Shown in pieces: positions 3,377 through 57,829 of a DNA stretch of 59,608 nucleotides. The notes beneath the pieces are model-generated. The model saw nothing but the letters and a program-made list of their open reading frames with translations. It was not told the DNA's origin and made no database searches. The DNA is from a virus. Location: positions 1 through 59,608 of IMG/VR virus record IMGVR_UViG_3300043602_000092; one strand, given 5' to 3'. Positions within the stretch are counted from its first letter, which is position 1; each line of letters opens with the position of its first letter. The translations under genes and the position numbers were made by a program.

Positions 3377-3406
3377 CTGACCCCTCAACCCCGCGCGATG
3401 GCGGGG
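3377..3406 (-). promoter_or_regulatory. Leader hairpin plus AGGGGTCAG, copy 3
   Basis: A CCCCGC/GCGGGG stem at 3389-3406 is followed leftward by AGGGGTCAG (3377-3385) and then a small CCCGCTTCGG turn before the 3350 start. Confidence 0.5.
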
Positions 3407-3429: not shown

Positions 3430-3744
3430 TCAGGGTCGGCGCTCATAGAACGTCGCGTGGTAGGTGCCGCCGTGCAGTTTGAAATCTCGCACCGGCCTGA
3501 AACCGAAGCCCTCATAGTAAGGCTTCAACTTTTCAATCGAGGTGCCGAGCGCGAGCGTCACGCCATACTCGTCGGCAAGGGTGCAAAGGTCTTGCAAGGC
3601 GATTGCGCCGTTGCCCTTTGCCCCGCGATTGCGGAGGCCCATGATGCTCCAAGGGCCGCGAGCGTTTGCGGTGATTGAGTATGTGACACCGAGTTGCGTG
3701 CGATGCTCGTCGGCAAGTTCATCAAAGGCGGTCTTGGCGGTCAT
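3430..3744 (-). CDS. GNAT-like small protein, 104 aa
   Basis: The C-terminal half has the look of a GNAT acetyltransferase tail: a helix (LCTLADEYGVTLALGT), then LKPYYEGFGF, matching the usual Y-x-x-x-GF turn before the last strand. The N-terminal part is shorter than a full GNAT domain (about 140 aa), and the acetyl-CoA pyrophosphate loop is not obvious. Either a compact divergent acetyltransferase or a non-catalytic relative is possible. It sits in the same leftward block as the amidoligase and GGCT genes. Confidence 0.55.
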   Translation of the reverse strand: MTAKTAFDELADEHRTQLGVTYSITANARGPWSIMGLRNRGAKGNGAIALQDLCTLADEYGVTLALGTSIEKLKPYYEGFGFRPVRDFKLHGGTYHATFYERRP

Positions 3745-3771: not shown

Positions 3772-3800
3772 CTGACCCCTTGGCCCCGCGACCGGCGGGG
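3772..3800 (-). promoter_or_regulatory. Leader hairpin plus AGGGGTCAG, copy 4
   Basis: A CCCCGC/GCGGGG stem at 3784-3800 is followed leftward by AGGGGTCAG (3772-3780) and a second small stem (CCCGC/GCGGG) before the 3744 start. Confidence 0.5.
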
Positions 3801-4110: not shown

Positions 4111-4168
4111 CTGGCTTCTCCTTGGGGCGGGATGCCCCGGCGGCGGCGGCCCCAAGGGCCTTGCTGCA

Positions 4169-4216
4169 TGGACCATATGTGGCCCACCCTGCTCGAAATG
4201 GCAAGGGCACCTTATC
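4169..4216 (-). promoter_or_regulatory. Operator/promoter-like element, site B
   Basis: The palindrome AAGG-TGC-CCTT (4200-4216, leftward GATAAGGTGCCCTTGCC) lies exactly 20 bases from a near-palindrome TGGACCATATGTGGCCCA (4169-4186). The same pair with the same spacing occurs at site C (6510-6557). It heads the 4110 zinc-finger unit. Confidence 0.6.
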
Positions 4217-4323
4217 ATTATTTCAGGAAAAAAGTGCTGGCAACCCGATACCTGGGTGGGGCCGAAGCGGCCACTTTTCTGGTGGGCACTGGTGCGGAAT
4301 TTCAGGGAGGGAGGTAGAGCGGA

Positions 4324-4345: not shown

Positions 4346-5035
4346 TCAGTCGCCATATACGGCCATTGCGCGGCCCCATAGGCCAAGGTCAAGGTTCCCC
4401 TGAGGCTCCGGGGCGGCCTTGGGGCGGCCTTTCCCGGCGGGGCGGGCCTTGGCGGCGGCCCGCGCGGCCTTGGCCTGATCCGCCTTTGATGGCGGCGGGG
4501 CGGCGGCCTTGGCGGCCTTGGCCTTGGCAATCTCGCTGGGCCGCGATGCCAACTCCGGTCGGCCCTTTCGCGCGTGCCGTTGTCTCTCGATATGCGAGGG
4601 CGCTTTTTTATCATGCGATGCTTCGACCGCCTGATCGAGCGGGCCGCGCGGCAGTTTGAAGTCGCGATAACCTTCTTGAATTGATCGCAGATAGAACTTG
4701 CTGGGCGGCATGATCCCGGTCGAGTTCATGACGTAGACCAGAAGCGCATCGTGCATCTCGCCTTCAAAATCATAAGGCTCAATCGGAATGTAGACCTTGC
4801 GATACATCTGGCTTTCGACGCCCTCATATCGGTCGAGGACTTGCTCGCAGGCATCGGTGAGTTTCCAGACCGCGCCTTGCACCTTGTCTCCCGGCGATTG
4901 AACGATGTCGGCCACTCCCCTGAAAACCAGAAGCCAATCATCGAGAACGATTGATCCGATGGCGGTGGCGGCGGGGCATCGGTGCCGCATCTGCTCTTTG
5001 TTCAGGTTCGATCCGTAGGCAAAATAAAGTGTCAC
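4346..5035 (-). CDS. Gamma-glutamylcyclotransferase (GGCT/AIG2-like), 229 aa
   Basis: The N-terminal 135 residues match the GGCT fold: FAYGSNL at 5-11, a central LDRYEGV (68-74) holding the candidate catalytic Glu71, and later FYLRSI-type closing strands. Members cleave gamma-glutamyl amides, releasing 5-oxoproline. The remaining 90 residues are a low-complexity Ala/Lys/Pro tail. Translation starts at GTG (5035) behind GGAGCAAG. Its neighbours are an XRE regulator and the amidoligase at 5374-6450. An amide-forming and a gamma-glutamyl-cleaving enzyme together suggest a peptide or protein modification pathway; that link is inference. Confidence 0.85.
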   Translation of the reverse strand: MTLYFAYGSNLNKEQMRHRCPAATAIGSIVLDDWLLVFRGVADIVQSPGDKVQGAVWKLTDACEQVLDRYEGVESQMYRKVYIPIEPYDFEGEMHDALLVYVMNSTGIMPPSKFYLRSIQEGYRDFKLPRGPLDQAVEASHDKKAPSHIERQRHARKGRPELASRPSEIAKAKAAKAAAPPPSKADQAKAARAAAKARPAGKGRPKAAPEPQGNLDLGLWGRAMAVYGD

Positions 5036-5057
5036 TTGCTTGCTCCGTTGTTAAGTT

Positions 5058-5096
5058 CTGACCCCTCGACCCCGGTGGGTCTTTCGACCGCCGGGG
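5058..5096 (-). promoter_or_regulatory. Leader hairpin plus AGGGGTCAG, copy 5
   Basis: An extended stem (CCCCGG/CCGGGG with inner GGTC/GACC around a TTTC loop, 5070-5096) is followed leftward by AGGGGTCAG (5058-5066), about 25 bases before the GGCT start. Confidence 0.5.
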
Positions 5097-5111
5097 CAAA
5101 GGGCCTTTCGA

Positions 5112-5324
5112 TCAGGCTTCGACTTTCATCCCCATTGCGAGGGCCGCCATCGCGAGCTTGATGTATCGCGGGGTGGTGGGCGGATCGCGCTCCCAATCGC
5201 CAAGGGCAGTGCGCGAGCATCCCAATGCTTCGGAAGCATCGCGCTGATTGAGGCCCATCGCCTCTCGCCAAGAGGCGATGGAATTATCTGGGGCCGCCGG
5301 TTCTTTGATGGTCTTGGAACTCAT
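5112..5324 (-). CDS. XRE-type HTH regulator, 70 aa
   Basis: A single helix-turn-helix fills the protein: WREAMGLNQRDASEALGCSR then TALGDWERD, the usual helices 2-3 of the Cro/CI family. No dimerisation or peptidase domain is attached. The ATG follows AAGGAGA. It lies between amidoligase and GGCT in one leftward run and may control that pair or the AAGG-N3-CCTT sites, which is unproven. Confidence 0.85.
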   Translation of the reverse strand: MSSKTIKEPAAPDNSIASWREAMGLNQRDASEALGCSRTALGDWERDPPTTPRYIKLAMAALAMGMKVEA

Positions 5325-5347
5325 AGCAATTCTCCTTCGTGGGTGGT

Positions 5348-5367
5348 GGCGGGGCCGAAGCCCCGCC
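5348..5367 (-). promoter_or_regulatory. Perfect UUCG-type hairpin before the XRE gene
   Basis: GGCGGGGC and GCCCCGCC form a perfect 8-bp stem closed by TTCG in the leftward sense. It sits between the amidoligase stop and the XRE start. With no U-tract following, an RNA-processing or translation-control role is as likely as termination. Confidence 0.5.
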
Positions 5368-5373
5368 GGTTGA

Positions 5374-6450
5374 TCAGGCGGCCCATGCGATGGGGCCGCC
5401 CAAGTTCGCGGTGCGCTGGGTGACGTATTCCCTGACCGATCCCGAAAGGGCGAGCAGGGTGCAGAAGCCATCCACCGAAACGTCGTGGCTGGATGCGATG
5501 GTCGGGGCGGCGGTTGCTACCGCGTTCACCGAGTAGCGTGTCTCGCGACCGATCCGGGTGGTGACAATCGGCAGGCCCGTTGATGCCGCGATCTGCGCGA
5601 TTGAAACCGAGGGCCATTGCGTGGCTTCTACAATCTCAGTGCGGCTCGCGCCTTGGGGCCGCATGATCATCTCTACAATCGTATGGCGCTTGCTGCCCCG
5701 GCGTGCGGTATTGCGGAAAGTGCCCGCCGATGCCTGCGTCGCGGTTTCAAAGGTGATCGCGTCGTTCTTGGCGGCCTCAACGATGGCCCAGCAGATACGA
5801 ACCCAATTCTCAGACTTGGTCGCATCGACCGTTCCCGAATGCTGCCGAAATTCAATCGTCTTGTGGCGATTGAAGGCGGTGACATTCACCTTGTGGTATC
5901 GCGGTTCTCCCGCGCGGCTCGCGCGCTGGATCGTATAGGCCAGATCAGAAATGCTGGCGGCCTGATTGATCGCGGCGGGAGAGGCGGCCAAGAGCGACCG
6001 GGTGAAAGTATTGGTCGAGTTGCGGCGGCTCATCGGCATGATGCCGTCGATCACCTTCTCGTAGGTCTGATAAAGGCGCACCGCCTTTTTGAAAAACCCA
6101 AGGCCCATCCCTGCGACACCTACATGGACGTGCATTCCCGCGTCCTTGTTAACGGTGCATCCGAAATCGGTGAGGGCTTCGCAAACGGCCCGCATCTCCT
6201 TGATGCCTTCCTCGCCCTGAAGCGGCGGGAGGGCGCGCGATACGACCTCAACTCCGTGGGTGTAGTCGCCAAGGGAACCATCTGGTACGATTTTCCAGTG
6301 GGGCGTGGCGTTGTGGCCGTAGTTCTCGACCTTGCAAGACTGCCCGAAAGCAGAAAGGCGGGCCGAGATGGCGGCGGCCAATTGTTCGCGGGTTGATCCG
6401 CGCGGAATGAAGCATTCAAACTCCGTTCCGAAAGTAAGTCCGTAGGGCAT
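5374..6450 (-). CDS. Amidoligase (GS-like fold) with C-terminal DUF3489-like HTH, 358 aa
   Basis: The first 230 residues match the putative amidoligase family: GTEFECF at 8-14 with metal-type Glu10 and Glu12, then VPDGSL, GVEVVSR, and AGMHVHVGV, a strand rich in metal-binding His. Such enzymes are predicted to join carboxyl and amino groups using ATP. Residues about 260-320 resemble the DUF3489 winged-helix-like unit (RGSKRHTIVEMI, then EATQW). The start at 6450 follows GGAGCAAG. It heads the leftward operon behind site C, with GGCT two genes downstream. The substrate is unknown. Confidence 0.85.
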   Translation of the reverse strand: MPYGLTFGTEFECFIPRGSTREQLAAAISARLSAFGQSCKVENYGHNATPHWKIVPDGSLGDYTHGVEVVSRALPPLQGEEGIKEMRAVCEALTDFGCTVNKDAGMHVHVGVAGMGLGFFKKAVRLYQTYEKVIDGIMPMSRRNSTNTFTRSLLAASPAAINQAASISDLAYTIQRASRAGEPRYHKVNVTAFNRHKTIEFRQHSGTVDATKSENWVRICWAIVEAAKNDAITFETATQASAGTFRNTARRGSKRHTIVEMIMRPQGASRTEIVEATQWPSVSIAQIAASTGLPIVTTRIGRETRYSVNAVATAAPTIASSHDVSVDGFCTLLALSGSVREYVTQRTANLGGPIAWAA

Positions 6451-6509
6451 GGCTTGCTCCTCAGGGCGGGATTGCCCCGGCGGGTTGCCTGTATTGGCCG
6501 CCCCGTCGA

Positions 6510-6557
6510 TGGACCATATGTGGCCCATCCTGCTGGGAAAGGCAAGGCCGCCTTATC
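6510..6557 (-). promoter_or_regulatory. Operator/promoter-like element, site C
   Basis: Leftward GATAAGGCGGCCTTGCC (6541-6557, dyad AAGG-CGG-CCTT) lies 20 bases from TGGACCATATGTGGCCCA (6510-6527), as at site B. It stands between the divergent amidoligase unit and the late operon and could serve both. Confidence 0.6.
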
Positions 6558-6588
6558 ATTTTTCTCGAATAAAAGTCGGAGGTGAATA

Positions 6589-7284
6589 ATGCCCGAAGAT
6601 CAGGCTCTTAGTGGGGAGGCCCCTGAAATCGCAGGGGAAAACAGGCCCGCCCCGGATCAGGCCGCCCCGCCCCAAGGGGATCAGGCGGCCCCGGCGGCCC
6701 CGGATCAGGCCCAAGGCGATCAGGCCCCGCGCGGGGCATTGATGACCGCCGATATGGCGGGCCGCCTCATAATGAAATCAGGCGAGCGGGTTCGCCAACT
6801 CGCAAAGGAGGGGTGGATACCAAAGCACGGAACCGGCCAAGGTGCGCGCTATGCCTTGGTGGATGTAGTGCAAGGTTACATTCGGTTCCGCGATGACGTA
6901 GACCGTCGCGGTCAGAAGACCGCCGCCGCCACGCGCATCTCAGACGCACGCGCTCGCGAGATTGAATTGCGAACCGCGATCCGAGAAGGCCGTCTTATCG
7001 ACCTTGACGAAGCACTTGATGCAGTGGAGGAATTGATAGGTCTGCTCCGCACCGAGTTGTCGGGGTTGCCTGCACGCTGCACTCGCGACTTGCAGATCAG
7101 GCGCACAATTGAAACGGTTCGCAATGACATCCTCGACCGCATCGCTGATCTTGCCGAGCAGAAAGCAAAAGATATGGGAACGCGTCGGTCTGCTGGCACG
7201 GCCATCGAAGCCAATGCCACCGGACAAGTGGGCGGAAACGAACCGAACCCATCCGCAGACATCCGGGGTGCCGGGTCCGCGTGA
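6589..7284 (+). CDS. Terminase small subunit, Nu1-like, 231 aa
   Basis: After a Pro/Gln/Asp-rich disordered leader of about 45 residues comes a winged HTH (MTADMAGRLIMKSGERVRQL, then GWIPKHG), typical of phage DNA-packaging Nu1 proteins that bind the packaging site. A long helical region (about 110-200) would mediate oligomerisation and contact with the large subunit. The ribosome site GGAGGTGA is a near-perfect match to the 16S tail. It opens the late operon and its 3' end overlaps the large-subunit gene in another frame. Confidence 0.85.
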   Translation: MPEDQALSGEAPEIAGENRPAPDQAAPPQGDQAAPAAPDQAQGDQAPRGALMTADMAGRLIMKSGERVRQLAKEGWIPKHGTGQGARYALVDVVQGYIRFRDDVDRRGQKTAAATRISDARAREIELRTAIREGRLIDLDEALDAVEELIGLLRTELSGLPARCTRDLQIRRTIETVRNDILDRIADLAEQKAKDMGTRRSAGTAIEANATGQVGGNEPNPSADIRGAGSA

Positions 7285-9175
7285 TCCATATCTAACACCG
7301 TACATCGTGGAACCAGGACGCGCGATTGCGGCGGGTGGATACAAGCGGGTCGTTCTGGTGTTCGGTGCGCAGACCGGCAAGACCGAGTTGATGCTCGATG
7401 TCGCCGGTCAGCGCCTCGACCAGCAACCGGCACCGATCCTGTATGTCGGTCCCAACAAGCAGTTCCTTTCCGAGCAGTTCGAACCGCGCGTGATGGCCCT
7501 GCTCGATGGCGCGGCCACGCTGACGAACAAGGTCGCGCGCGGCAAGCGCATGACCAAGACCCGCAAGATGGTGGCAGGCGTCCCGTTCCGATTGGCGCAC
7601 GCGGGATCGACCACGGCCCTCAAGTCTGATCCGGCGGCCCTCGCGCTGGTGGACGAATACGATGAAATGAAATCGAACGTGAACGAGCAGGGCGGTCCCC
7701 TTGGCCTCGTTGAGCGCCGCGGTGACACCTATGCGGATTTCGTCTGCGTGGTGACTTCGACGCCGAAGCGCGGGAGAGTTGCTGCGGCGCGAGATACGAG
7801 GTCGGGCCTGATCTTCTGGGACGAGGCAGTGGTGGAAGACATCGAAAGCCCGATCTGGCAATTGTGGCAACAGGGCACCCGGCATCACTGGTGCTGGCCC
7901 TGCCCGCATTGCGGTGAGTATTTCGTCCCGCGCTTCGACCTGATGCGGTATCCGCTCAAGGCCACGCCGATGGAAGCGGGTCGCGAAGCCTACATGCTTT
8001 GCCCGCGCGATGACTGTGGCGGCATCATCGAGAACCATCACAAGGCGACCATGAACGAACGCGGCCACTACGTCGCGCCAGGTCAATCAATCACGACAGA
8101 CGGGATCGTTCATGGTGCACCGCGAGAGCGATTGACCCTGTCCTATTGGGTGTCTGGCCTTGCGTCACCGTTTGTAACATTCGGTGAACGCATCGCATCG
8201 CTGGTCGAGGCGCAGCAATCCGGCGACGACGCGATGGTCCAGCAGGCCATGAACGCCGGGTTCGGTGAGTTGCATTCTCCCGGCGGCGGTGACGTTCCAG
8301 AGTGGGCGGAAATCAAGGAGAAGTCGCGCCTGTCGGGATACGTTCGCGGTGAAGTTCCTGAGGAGGCCCTGTATCTCACCTTGACGGCGGACGTGCAGCG
8401 GCAGTCGATCCCGTGGGTGATCAGGGCGTGGGGCGCCCGCGCGACCTCATGGCTGGTGAACTACGGCTATCTCCGTGGCGATACTGCGGAGGAGGAAATC
8501 TGGGGTGCCCTTGGCGACCTCGTCGCCACGCCGGTCGATGGCGTGCCGATCAAGCTATGCTTCATCGACAGCGGATTTCGACCGGGCAAGACCGACACCC
8601 TGCCGATCAATCGCATCTATGAGTTCTGTCGCCGGTTCGGTCGCAGGGTGAGGCCGACCAAGGGATCGTCGTCGGCCATGCGGACGCCCCTGATCTTCTC
8701 CAAGATCGAGGTCAGTCGCAAGGATGGCAAGGCCGCAAAGTTCGGTCTGGACCTGGTTCGCCTCGACACCGACCACTGGAAATCATGGGTGCATGAACGG
8801 CTGCGATGGCCCTCCGAGCAAGTCGGTGCGTGGCATGTTTTCAAGAATGTTGATGACGATTACTGCCACCAACTGGTTTCCGAGGCGCGATTGAAGCAGC
8901 CGACAGGGCGGGTCGAATGGGTCCAGCGCTCAAGGGATAACCACTTTTTCGACTGCGAGGCGATGCAGGCTGCGGCTGGATACCTTCTCAATGTCCAGCG
9001 CATCCCGTTGCAAAATAAACCGAACCGCACTATGGATGGCGTTGGCGCGAAGCCAGAAACCCCACCTGAGGTAGTTCTCCAACCGCTAGACGCGCCACCG
9101 CCCACACCACCGCCCGTGACCATGCGGAGCAAAAGAACAAGGCGCATCATCAGGTCGAACTACCTTGGAGCATAG
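7124..9175 (+). CDS. Terminase large subunit, GpA family, 683 aa
   Basis: The packaging ATPase/nuclease. A Walker A-like FGAQTGKTE near residue 80 and a Walker B ALALVDEYDEM near 175 mark the motor. A Cys pair set (CPHCGEY, then CPRDDCGG) matches the zinc element seen in GpA proteins, and later Asp-rich strands (TADVQ, FIDSGF) form the RNase H-like nuclease. The start is uncertain: ATG 7124 is used, TTG 7109 or ATG 7217 are alternatives, and none has a clear ribosome site, consistent with coupling to the overlapping small-subunit gene. Confidence 0.92.
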   Translation: MTSSTASLILPSRKQKIWERVGLLARPSKPMPPDKWAETNRTHPQTSGVPGPRDPYLTPYIVEPGRAIAAGGYKRVVLVFGAQTGKTELMLDVAGQRLDQQPAPILYVGPNKQFLSEQFEPRVMALLDGAATLTNKVARGKRMTKTRKMVAGVPFRLAHAGSTTALKSDPAALALVDEYDEMKSNVNEQGGPLGLVERRGDTYADFVCVVTSTPKRGRVAAARDTRSGLIFWDEAVVEDIESPIWQLWQQGTRHHWCWPCPHCGEYFVPRFDLMRYPLKATPMEAGREAYMLCPRDDCGGIIENHHKATMNERGHYVAPGQSITTDGIVHGAPRERLTLSYWVSGLASPFVTFGERIASLVEAQQSGDDAMVQQAMNAGFGELHSPGGGDVPEWAEIKEKSRLSGYVRGEVPEEALYLTLTADVQRQSIPWVIRAWGARATSWLVNYGYLRGDTAEEEIWGALGDLVATPVDGVPIKLCFIDSGFRPGKTDTLPINRIYEFCRRFGRRVRPTKGSSSAMRTPLIFSKIEVSRKDGKAAKFGLDLVRLDTDHWKSWVHERLRWPSEQVGAWHVFKNVDDDYCHQLVSEARLKQPTGRVEWVQRSRDNHFFDCEAMQAAAGYLLNVQRIPLQNKPNRTMDGVGAKPETPPEVVLQPLDAPPPTPPPVTMRSKRTRRIIRSNYLGA

Positions 9176-47992: not shown

Positions 47993-48110
47993 ATCATAAC
48001 CTCCAGAAAGCGGCCTGCCGCAATGGCTGGGCCTGTTACGCCAATGTCGGCGCGAGGTGAACGATAAGGCGACCTTGCCAAGTGTCAAGATCGGATGATA
48101 AGTGGCGGCG
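47993..48110. promoter_or_regulatory. Divergent control region with site F
   Basis: Site F at 48063-48079 reads GATAAGGCGACCTTGCC (dyad AAGG-CGA-CCTT). Its TTGCCA, a 16-base spacer and GATAAG (48096-48101) form a rightward promoter just before the Mom-like gene. A leftward promoter for the DUF6551 gene should also lie here. Confidence 0.6.
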
Positions 48111-48788
48111 ATGACTGAGCAATTATTTCTGAATTTTGCGGTGGATCAGAAACGGGCCACTACCGTGCAACGGATCGAACTCGATCTGGCGAAGCCGTTC
48201 ATCCAGAAGCACCACTACTCACGCAACTGCCCGACCGGACAGAACTGGTTCTTTGGCCTGTTCATCGGCACCGAGCTTTATGCCGTCGCGGCCTATGGCA
48301 TCGGGGCGAACATGGACGGCGGGGCCTCACTCGCGCGGATGACGGGCCTTCCTGTCACGCGGCAGAACCACTGCACGCTCAAGCGCCTATGCCGAAAGGG
48401 CGACAAGGGCCGTTCAATCATTCCGCTGTCGGGCTTTCTCGCGAGGTGCCACCGGATGCTCAAGCGGGAGAACGCGGTGCGCTTCGTGGTGTCGTATGCC
48501 GACCCGTCTGAGAACGGCCAGGTCGTTCCAGCACGACGCACGACTGAGTGGCAGTGCGGCGGCATCTATGCGGCGAGCAATTTCAAGTATTTAGGCAAGG
48601 TGCCTGCCGAGCGTCACTTCAAGGACGAGGCGGGCGGGTTCGTACACCGCCGCGTTCCCTATCGCCTGATGAAGCGGCGGATCGCGGCAGGCGATGCGTG
48701 GACCATGCCTCTGGCGCAGCGCGAGATGGGCCTGACGCCTTGGGTGATGATGCCAAAGGAGCGGTGGTTCCTTGACCTTGGAACCTGA
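48111..48788 (+). CDS. Mom-like DNA-modification protein 1, 225 aa
   Basis: The GNAT-derived Mom family order is visible: HHYSRNCPTGQNWFFGLFIG, LARMTG, RFVVSYADPSENGQ, then WQCGGIYAASNFKYLGK, close to Mu Mom's (S-F/Y-AD ... G-x-I-Y-x-A-x-N-W/F). Mu Mom converts adenine in DNA to a carbamoylmethyl form that blocks restriction. The C-terminus is basic and aromatic. GTG 48102 is an alternative start. It stands apart from the second Mom-like gene at 57107. Confidence 0.75.
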   Translation: MTEQLFLNFAVDQKRATTVQRIELDLAKPFIQKHHYSRNCPTGQNWFFGLFIGTELYAVAAYGIGANMDGGASLARMTGLPVTRQNHCTLKRLCRKGDKGRSIIPLSGFLARCHRMLKRENAVRFVVSYADPSENGQVVPARRTTEWQCGGIYAASNFKYLGKVPAERHFKDEAGGFVHRRVPYRLMKRRIAAGDAWTMPLAQREMGLTPWVMMPKERWFLDLGT

Positions 48789-52264: not shown

Positions 52265-52422
52265 CCTATATCGACAACACGGAACTGGAAGTTCGCGCGC
52301 GTCGGATTGCTGCAATCAAGATGGGCCTTATCAAAGACCCAGAAGGGAAAAAGCTGCCTGACGACCTGTGGCGGCAGTGCTTGGCCGATGCGATGGCAGA
52401 GGCACGCCGTGAACGTCCTTGA
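52261..52422 (+). CDS. Hypothetical protein, 53 aa
   Basis: This is a helical small protein (ELEVRARRIAAIKMGL, then LPDDLWRQCLADAMAEARRE) with GTG start coupled to the helicase stop. Its 3' end overlaps the methyltransferase start. No family is recognised. Confidence 0.55.
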   Translation: MTYIDNTELEVRARRIAAIKMGLIKDPEGKKLPDDLWRQCLADAMAEARRERP

Positions 52423-53179
52423 CCTATTCTCAGGCATCGGTGGTTTTTCCCTTGGCCTTGAACGGGCAGGGATGCGAACAATCGCATTCTGTGAGAATGA
52501 TCCGCGCGCCAGATCGGTGCTGACCAAGCGATGGCCTGATGTCCCAATCCACGATGATGTCACCACCCTCGACGCCACCGGGATCGACGCCCAAGTCATC
52601 TGCGGTGGTTTCCCTTGCCAAGATGTTAGCATTGCAGGAGCAGTCAGCATCGAAGGCGGAAGCACCGGCCTTTCCGGCGAACGTAGTGGCCTCTGGCGGG
52701 AATATCTTAGAACCATTCGCGTGGTACGACCGCAGTTCGCAATCGTGGAGAACGTGGCAGCGTTGCTTCATCGAGGGGTGGGCGACCTTCTCAGGGGATT
52801 GGCCGAGAACGGCTATGATGCGGAGTGGCATTGCATACGGGCCTCCGACCTGGGTGCTGCGCACGAACGGGACCGCATCTGGATTATTGCCTACCCTGTC
52901 GGCTCGCGAAGGGAAGGACTGGTCTCGCGCGCGGATTTTATCGGGGCTGGACCGTGGGGATGGCGTGGCGAAGAAGATATGCGCGCAGTCTGCGACTATC
53001 CATTCGAGCGAGGTGATCGTTGGCCTCAACCCCTGCTTCGGAGAGTGGATGATGGACTATCCGGTCGGGTGGACCGACTGCATCTGATCGGGAACGCAAT
53101 CGTGCCCAAGATCGCGGAGATAATCGGGCACGCAATCATGAGGGCAGGCAATGGCGGAAATCAGACGGTTGGAGTGTGA
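52409..53179 (+). CDS. DNA C5-cytosine methyltransferase, compact, 256 aa
   Basis: Motifs are in order: LDLFSGIGGFSLGLERAG (4-21), GGFPCQDVSIAG with catalytic Cys70, VENV (113-116), HERDRIW (152-158) and GNAIVPK (229-235). The region between motifs VIII and IX-X is short, so the target-recognition part is minimal. The product would be m5C in an unknown sequence. It starts at GTG 52409. A second long frame (52539-53087) runs through the same DNA. Confidence 0.9.
   Translation: MNVLDLFSGIGGFSLGLERAGMRTIAFCENDPRARSVLTKRWPDVPIHDDVTTLDATGIDAQVICGGFPCQDVSIAGAVSIEGGSTGLSGERSGLWREYLRTIRVVRPQFAIVENVAALLHRGVGDLLRGLAENGYDAEWHCIRASDLGAAHERDRIWIIAYPVGSRREGLVSRADFIGAGPWGWRGEEDMRAVCDYPFERGDRWPQPLLRRVDDGLSGRVDRLHLIGNAIVPKIAEIIGHAIMRAGNGGNQTVGV
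52539..53087 (+). CDS. Second reading frame inside the methyltransferase gene, 182 aa (uncertain)
   Basis: The +1 frame stays open for 182 codons and its product has a protein-like, Trp-rich order: SWRTWQRCFIEGWATFSGDW, then AMMRSGIAYGPP, GLLPTL and LNPCFGEWMMDYPVGWTD. From memory this resembles proteins deposited near phage methyltransferases, but the same order could be a shadow of conserved methyltransferase codons. No clear ribosome site was seen. Confidence 0.35.
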   Translation: MSQSTMMSPPSTPPGSTPKSSAVVSLAKMLALQEQSASKAEAPAFPANVVASGGNILEPFAWYDRSSQSWRTWQRCFIEGWATFSGDWPRTAMMRSGIAYGPPTWVLRTNGTASGLLPTLSAREGKDWSRARILSGLDRGDGVAKKICAQSATIHSSEVIVGLNPCFGEWMMDYPVGWTDCI

Positions 53180-56936: not shown

Positions 56937-57110
56937 ATGGCTAAAGTTGAACCCAAGATGACGAAGAATGCGATGGCGGCGGCGATCCTCGCGATGCCCT
57001 ATGGCGAATTGATCAAGGTCGCGGAGCAGTTGGCCGACATCAAACTGTCGCGCCTTGAGACGCGCGAGGATTTTGCAAAGCTCCTGCACGATTGGGCGGA
57101 CGGGCAATGA
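56937..57110 (+). CDS. Hypothetical protein, 57 aa
   Basis: A helical small protein (AILAMPYGELIKVAEQLADI) coupled by ATGA to the Mom-like gene. In Mu the gene before mom is com, a zinc-finger translation factor; this one has no Cys, so it is only a positional parallel. AGGGAGAAGGCGG precedes the ATG. Confidence 0.6.
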   Translation: MAKVEPKMTKNAMAAAILAMPYGELIKVAEQLADIKLSRLETREDFAKLLHDWADGQ

Positions 57111-57829
57111 CCGCGTTGGTGAATGCCAAGTCGATCAGGCTTGAGCCGATTGAGAAGCGCGATGCCGACGCCTTGGTGAAGCGGGTCCACTATTCGGGCA
57201 AGTATGTTCGGAACTCGTCGCTATCGCTGGGCGTCTTTCTCAACGGTCGCCTTGAAGGCGCGATGCAGTTCGGATCGTCGCTCGACAAGTCGAACGTCAT
57301 AGGTCTGGTGAGGGATACGCCGTGGAATGGATTTCTCGAATTAAACCGGATGGCGTTCAGCGACGTCTTGCCGAGGAACTCCGAAAGCCGCGCGCTGGGG
57401 ATCGCGCTGCGGATGATCAAGAAAAGTTATCCGCACATCGAGTGGGTGGTGAGCTTCGCGGACGCCTGCCAGTGTGGCGACGGGACTATCTATCGAGCCT
57501 CAGGGTTCGTCCTCACCAAGATCAGGGTGAACAAGGACGTGCTGCGATTTCCGGACGGGACCATCGGGCACAAGATGACGCAAGTGACGGGGAAAAATAG
57601 GCTTGCGCACTTCGCGAAGAACGGCGGCCTCTGGTCGGGATCAGGCGATGCGATCCCCGGCTTCATGCTGCGCTATATGTATTTCATCCACCCGACTGCA
57701 CGCGGGCGCCTGACCGTTGCAGAGGTTCCCTTCTCAGAGATAGACGCAAAGGGAGCGGGGATGTACAAGGGCAAGCCGATTGTGCGTGGGAAGCAGGCGA
57801 TGACCGGGCACCACCCGGAACAGCGGTGA
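57107..57829 (+). CDS. Mom-like DNA-modification protein 2, 240 aa
   Basis: The family order is clear: HYSGKYVRNSSLSLGVFLNG, FLELNRMAFSD, EWVVSFADACQCGDGTIYRA, then SGF. It matches Mu Mom better than protein 1 (SFAD and GTIYRA). The C-terminal LRYMYFIHPTARGRLTV is common to these proteins. It would alter adenine in phage DNA. It is the last rightward gene, with ParB-like two genes upstream. Confidence 0.82.
   Translation: MTALVNAKSIRLEPIEKRDADALVKRVHYSGKYVRNSSLSLGVFLNGRLEGAMQFGSSLDKSNVIGLVRDTPWNGFLELNRMAFSDVLPRNSESRALGIALRMIKKSYPHIEWVVSFADACQCGDGTIYRASGFVLTKIRVNKDVLRFPDGTIGHKMTQVTGKNRLAHFAKNGGLWSGSGDAIPGFMLRYMYFIHPTARGRLTVAEVPFSEIDAKGAGMYKGKPIVRGKQAMTGHHPEQR

Follow-up and report, generated by a model that had tools for sequence, protein, structure and literature searches.

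Gene content and noncoding elements of the locus

The window analysed here is an entire IMG/VR virus record. It is 59,608 bases long, and both of its ends carry the same 127-nt sequence as a terminal direct repeat. A single minus-strand run starts to the left of divergent terminase genes and encodes an amidoligase, then an XRE protein and then a gamma-glutamyl cyclotransferase (GGCT). We set the limits of this cassette at 6450, the amidoligase start, and 4346, the GGCT end. The features of the region are:

7109-9175: terminase large subunit
6589-7284: terminase small subunit (PHROG)
6509-6576, minus strand: promoter- or leader-like repeat upstream of the amidoligase start (operator site C of a first-pass annotation)
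5374-6450, minus strand: Amidoligase_2 protein, 358 aa, with a DUF3489-like winged helix near its C-terminus (catalytic core, residues ~5-230; winged helix, ~245-310; then a short helical end)
5112-5324, minus strand: XRE-type HTH protein, 70 aa (HTH_3, E=5e-8, Pfam)
5058-5075, minus strand: intergenic element, GC hairpin plus GAGGGGTCAG, before GGCT; one of five in the leftward run
4346-5035, minus strand: GGCT, 229 aa, GTG start (PF06094, E=3e-10; core, residues ~1-140; then a basic tail to the C-terminus, containing the motif DKKAPSHIERQRHARKGRPELASRPS and a K/A-rich stretch)
3430-3744: GNAT-like protein, beyond GGCT

The first-pass annotation had described an amidoligase-DUF3489-like fusion, an XRE gene and a GGCT in one leftward run, and Pfam and PHROG matches bear this out. 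It had also noted a GNAT-like protein further on. We do not count this gene as part of the cassette: the protein has no Pfam or PHROG family match, its match to an N-acetyltransferase structure is weak and partial (E=0.08), and no relative of the gene was found near the other cassettes searched.

The phage also encodes tail sheath, RecT, exonuclease, primase, helicase, RuvC and ParB-like genes, and a search of the record for a tyrosine integrase found none. Elsewhere in the window lie two Mom-like DNA modification genes (48102-48788 and 57092-57829, plus strand; phrog_1384, 7e-23 and 8e-44) and a C5 cytosine methylase gene (52307-53179). We rejected a link between Mom-like genes and the cassette, as Mom-like genes occur in 1 of 48 amidoligase records versus 2 of 23 terminase-matched records.

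About 20 of the most closely related loci encode XRE homologues on the same strand, between the two enzymes or directly after GGCT. The XRE gene, proposed at first pass as the cassette's own regulator, therefore is a conserved feature of the window's clade. Together with the winged helix of the amidoligase, the XRE protein probably sets expression of the module.

Site C proved to be a repeat. This 68-nt element (family D2) has its reference copy at 4168-4235, an 82% copy at 6509-6576 and a weaker, 66% copy at 2231-2298. Its 19-nt core ATGGACCATATGTGGCCCA is identical at 6509-6527 and 4168-4186 (two occurrences versus 0 expected). The three copies, with core AATGATAAGGNNNCCTTGCC, each precede a leftward transcription unit. 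We also considered a palindromic operator over the cassette promoter in relatives. Inverted repeats upstream of the amidoligase are convincing by eye, but exceed shuffled sequences in only 3 of 30 upstream regions, no more than chance would give.

The intergenic element before GGCT consists of a GC hairpin plus TTGAGGGGTCAG or a variant, occurs on the minus strand at 1264-1281, 2189-2206, 3377-3394, 3772-3789 and 5058-5075, and lies 20-80 nt ahead of the start codon of five leftward-run genes. The window holds six matches versus 0.47 expected, five of them inside the leftward run. In one relative (L002) the element precedes both GGCT and a second cyclotransferase. It is reminiscent of the start-associated sequences of cluster K mycobacteriophages.

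Residues and predicted folds of the two enzymes

The amidoligase matches Amidoligase_2 (Pfam accession PF12224) at residues 5-224 (E=1.2e-29; 104 bits versus a cut-off of 22), with profile positions 3-245 of 245 aligned and thus the whole domain covered. It also matches the amidoligase family phrog_2443 (E=4.5e-33). The DUF3489 match (Pfam accession PF11994, E=5.8e-7) spans residues 248-284 and is barely over its cut-off. In an alignment of 21 divergent amidoligases, G8xE10xE12, D57, E68, G105xH107xH109, N189 and E200xR202 are invariant in all 21, so that an active-site-like set of acidic, histidine and arginine residues is kept. The GxExE, GxHxH and ExR motifs look similar to the glutamine synthetase signatures ExE, HxH and ExR; profile comparison (below) gave no confirmation of this likeness.

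An AlphaFold2 model of the amidoligase (mean pLDDT 87) was compared with known structures using Foldseek. The best match is the GCS2-type carboxylate-amine ligase YbdK (1r8g; E=1e-5, probability 1.0), with a TM of only ~0.38 and about 12% identity. Bifunctional GshAB, a gamma-glutamylcysteine ligase (E=7e-4), glutamine synthetase (E=4e-3) and Dop are also among the fold matches. The sequence-profile match to YbdK/GCS2 is not significant: hhalign against GCS2 and glutamine synthetase alignments, all of them small, gave probabilities below 2%. On the basis of the model (with its low TM of ~0.38) and Pfam, the amidoligase is predicted to share the glutamine synthetase/gamma-glutamylcysteine synthetase fold, in agreement with ATP-dependent carboxylate-amine ligases. 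A 64-column stretch of the model resembles the winged-helix ArsR repressor 6j05 (probability 0.91), and we take this stretch to be the C-terminal domain.

The second enzyme matches phrog_2520 (gamma-glutamyl cyclotransferase, E=1e-25), and its model matches the fold of human GGCT (3cry; Foldseek E=4e-12). E71 aligns with human catalytic E98, the residue mutated in entries 3cry (E98Q) and 2rbh (E98A), and is invariant in 25 of 25 aligned homologues. The catalytic residues of both proteins, on which the first-pass reading depended, are thus retained. The YGSN substrate loop is present in all 25 aligned GGCTs as well, partly by construction (the seed pattern contained SNLNKEQM). Fold, catalytic glutamate and YGSN loop are therefore common to the phage enzyme and human GGCT (C7orf24; 2pn7), at 28-30% identity in the fold alignment, whereas the basic tail is a feature of the phage protein. 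In some relatives, a second, YGT-type cyclotransferase is encoded beside the main GGCT (L002:8026-8418, L043:10552-11031 and L117:9326-9826).

Joint inheritance and the proposed chemistry

We sampled loci in three ways, with seeds of GGCT alone, of amidoligase or of terminase, the last of which favours neither gene. Among 26 GGCT-seeded viral loci, a same-strand amidoligase is within reach in 22. Among 80 amidoligase-seeded viral loci, 65 have a GGCT, every time downstream and on the same strand. The 80 terminase-seeded loci comprise 26 with both genes, 2 with amidoligase only (both contigs ending at the gene), 0 with GGCT only and 52 with neither, some of these being short contigs. The association is far above chance (Fisher 5e-19), a value that overstates independence because the loci are related and some contigs are near-duplicates. 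Despite shared ancestry and short contigs, this pattern shows that amidoligase and GGCT are gained and lost as a unit, and it upholds the co-occurrence expected of related phages at first pass. A related cassette (L124) is also present in a culturable strain, Rhodoplanes tepidamans DSM 9987.

Accessory regions beside terminases are often mosaic, and the two enzymes could be unrelated neighbours whose adjacency has no functional meaning. Their joint presence and absence, an order and strand fixed in 65 of 80 viral loci, and the recurrence of this pair in phages that infect other bacterial phyla make this scarcely credible.

The best explanation, towards which we lean slightly, is that the cassette serves a tailed phage as an accessory module with jointly inherited genes, and that its two enzymes act as writer and remover of a gamma-glutamyl amide on one phage-chosen amine. 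The amidoligase, with its predicted glutamine synthetase/GCS-type fold, would activate a carboxylate with ATP (the likeliest being that at the gamma position of glutamate) and would join it to an amine to form a gamma-glutamyl amide. GGCT would act on gamma-glutamyl groups whose alpha-amine is free, cleaving them off as 5-oxoproline and liberating the amine. The two enzymes could jointly add and remove a gamma-glutamyl unit, or add one and later deprotect it. We infer ATP use, the glutamate donor, the writer/eraser relation and the regulation; formation of the amide with ATP and its removal as 5-oxoproline are what the chemistry of both families would predict. The first-pass annotation had proposed the attachment and removal of an amino acid. 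The linked pair, the conserved signatures and the agreeing folds favour that proposal, which we would narrow from any amino acid to a gamma-linked glutamyl unit.

Other phages have non-homologous partner enzymes: a class II glutamine amidotransferase (GATase II) in Arthrobacter phages and a GATase-GGCT fusion in phage C75C1. The families of these GATase-type partners have gamma-glutamyl amides as substrates too, a point in favour of the gamma-glutamyl scheme; a GATase partner could supply ammonia instead. The C75C1 fusion, of a class II glutamine amidotransferase domain with GGCT, is encoded downstream of the amidoligase (L037:6660-7553), and its GATase_4 match is slightly below the Pfam cut-off (21.9 versus 23 bits). 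A cluster that mixed GATase and GGCT proteins inflated the number of such fusions; Pfam confirmed that of C75C1 only.

Architecture across lineages and candidate targets

We identified two classes of HTH-bearing amidoligase in a redundant set of 198 sequences. A C-terminal DUF3489-like domain is present in 54 and an N-terminal HTH-like extension in 51. Pfam backs the C-terminal domain in further amidoligases. GGCT is nearby in 46 of the 54 C-terminal HTH (C-HTH) loci and in 2 of the 51 N-terminal HTH (N-HTH) loci, which are mostly from Bacteroidetes. A conserved basic tail, ERxRxxxxGRPxLA, is present on GGCT in 29 of these 46 C-HTH loci and in 0 of the other GGCT loci (the lone match outside the class, L001, duplicates the window). 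AT-hooks contain GRP cores, and the GGCT tail may likewise bind DNA.

All 51 N-HTH loci encode a protein of ~78 aa, typically directly 3' of the amidoligase. Bacteroidetes cassettes thus have this unannotated protein in place of GGCT. It matched no Pfam or NCBIfam family, and 1 of 15 members matched a PHROG (E 0.005). In other phages, the ~78-aa protein is encoded between amidoligase and GGCT. Across about 70 loci, the family directly follows the amidoligase, often overlapping its stop (for example L194:6737-6970, L098:6704-6943, L005:5706-5954 and L066:7278-7511). The ~78-aa protein is a candidate substrate or adaptor. Because the Bacteroidetes relatives keep the amidoligase without GGCT, removal by GGCT is not obligatory.

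These architectures raise the possibility that the winged helix and the GRP tail hold the enzymes on DNA, where the targets would be DNA-bound proteins, either of the phage or of the host, or bases. The frequency of HTH-like parts among amidoligases, the restriction of the tail motif to C-HTH loci, and the position of the cassette beside terminase in the window and beside DNA methylases in other phages are consistent with this. However, the HTH may serve autoregulation alone, the N-terminal HTH Pfam matches are weak, the tail could bind RNA or protein, its association with the C-HTH may reflect descent alone, and the Mom-like genes of this phage are unlinked to the cassette. We consider such localisation unlikely. 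A broader version would hold that phage amidoligases are commonly tethered to DNA, that N- and C-terminal HTH parts were acquired separately, that the GRP tail was gained only with the C-terminal winged helix, that the gamma-glutamyl mark is placed on DNA or DNA-bound proteins and not on the wall, and that the Bacteroidetes ~78-aa protein is the acceptor or an adaptor. This combination is also, in our view, unlikely.

The amidoligase-GGCT pairing itself is not new in phages, and the window is a variant in architecture. Iyer et al. 2009 and Hardies et al. 2013 are reportedly associated with the podoviral peptidoglycan-modification cassette, and the Pfam text for PF12224 presumably names GATase and Aig2 neighbours. 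In phiEco32/LUZ24/RIO-1-like phages, GATase, ATP-grasp and another ligase accompany amidoligase and GGCT in a hypothesised peptidoglycan-modification cassette (PMC5498523), and a gene list is available for the LUZ24-like cassette of phage UFV-P2, which has a PF12224 amidoligase (PMC3890496). Further listings of the pair are in the C. difficile island Tn6164, adjoining a terminase (PMC3485107), in Terrisporobacter TPDSL_ph1 (PMC11253131), in C. clostridioforme prophages (PMC11318856) and in Arthrobacter phages (PMC5513430). The roles given to these pairs are predictions, several of them citing Iyer et al. 2009.

The podoviral cassettes (phiEco32, LUZ24, PSA-HP1 and RIO-1) resemble the window in having an amidoligase (PF12224 in UFV-P2) and GGCT/AIG2 (PF06094) close together, with a presumed gamma-glutamyl chemistry in common. 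They additionally contain COOH-NH2_lig, ATP-grasp and GATase, whereas the winged helix on the amidoligase, the basic GGCT tail and the intervening XRE gene are features of the window. Searches of the record for GATase_6 (Pfam accession PF13522) and the ATP-grasp families RimK (PF08443) and YheCD (PF14398) found none, while positive controls worked; the window is therefore not classed as a full peptidoglycan-modification cassette.

As in the window, the amidoligase gene of the Firmicutes modules (Tn6164, TPDSL_ph1, C. clostridioforme prophages and Heliusvirales) has GGCT behind it on the same strand, and in Tn6164 and Heliusvirales the terminase is nearby. Neither the DUF3489-like C-terminal domain nor the GRP tail turned up in these modules. 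Terrisporobacter and Heliusvirales cassettes feature a second, diverged amidoligase-like gene (L038:2866-3591, L039:2928-3620, L040:2817-3788 and L041:3087-3875); the one protein aligned, that of L038, is without most of the catalytic residues. The Arthrobacter phages Edmundo, Laroye and Ottawa have an amidoligase with a GGCT neighbour (PF06094), as in the window, and differ in an extra class II glutamine amidotransferase and an N-terminal HTH-like amidoligase extension. What looks new is the lineage architecture: C- and N-HTH amidoligases, GRP-tailed GGCTs, an XRE gene in or near the slot between the enzymes, and the ~78-aa replacement.

The published guess for the acceptor is a cell-envelope peptide amine; a protein of the phage or the host would be no less plausible. 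The envelope proposal would have the pair modify amines of peptidoglycan or surface peptides after infection and so block superinfection, with GGCT recycling or trimming. It has been published for the amidoligase/ATP-grasp/GATase/GGCT cassettes of phiEco32/LUZ24/PSA-HP1-type phages (PMC5498523, PMC10580990, PMC11318856), and an accessory module gained and lost as a unit is expected of a superinfection trait. The sequences of the window nevertheless hold no pointer to the envelope, both enzymes carry DNA-binding-like parts, the ATP-grasp (RimK, YheCD) and GATase partners were not found in this phage, and the published role is itself a prediction. We regard an envelope target as possible but doubtful.

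A Planctomycete phage that encodes amidoligase, GATase, glutathione synthase and GGCT has been proposed to aid nitrogen metabolism (PMC10945688). By analogy with this gene set, the window pair might be auxiliary metabolic genes that help host nitrogen or glutathione metabolism (the gamma-glutamyl cycle) during infection. Yet Pfam and PHROG searches found no glutathione-type genes next to the window cassette, and one would not expect a generic metabolic aid to consist of two enzymes in fixed linkage with HTH parts, which makes this role distinctly improbable.

Papers repeat a cell-wall role, itself a prediction, for amidoligase and GGCT genes that are widespread in phages. The window module presents a minimal set: two enzymes that are gained and lost jointly, whose active sites are intact and which bear DNA-binding-like appendages; GATase II and the ~78-aa protein are alternative partners elsewhere. 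If the DNA-binding parts serve autoregulation only, the module would be an easy system for finding the acceptor. If they matter for catalysis, the cell-wall assumption would not hold for a large group of them.
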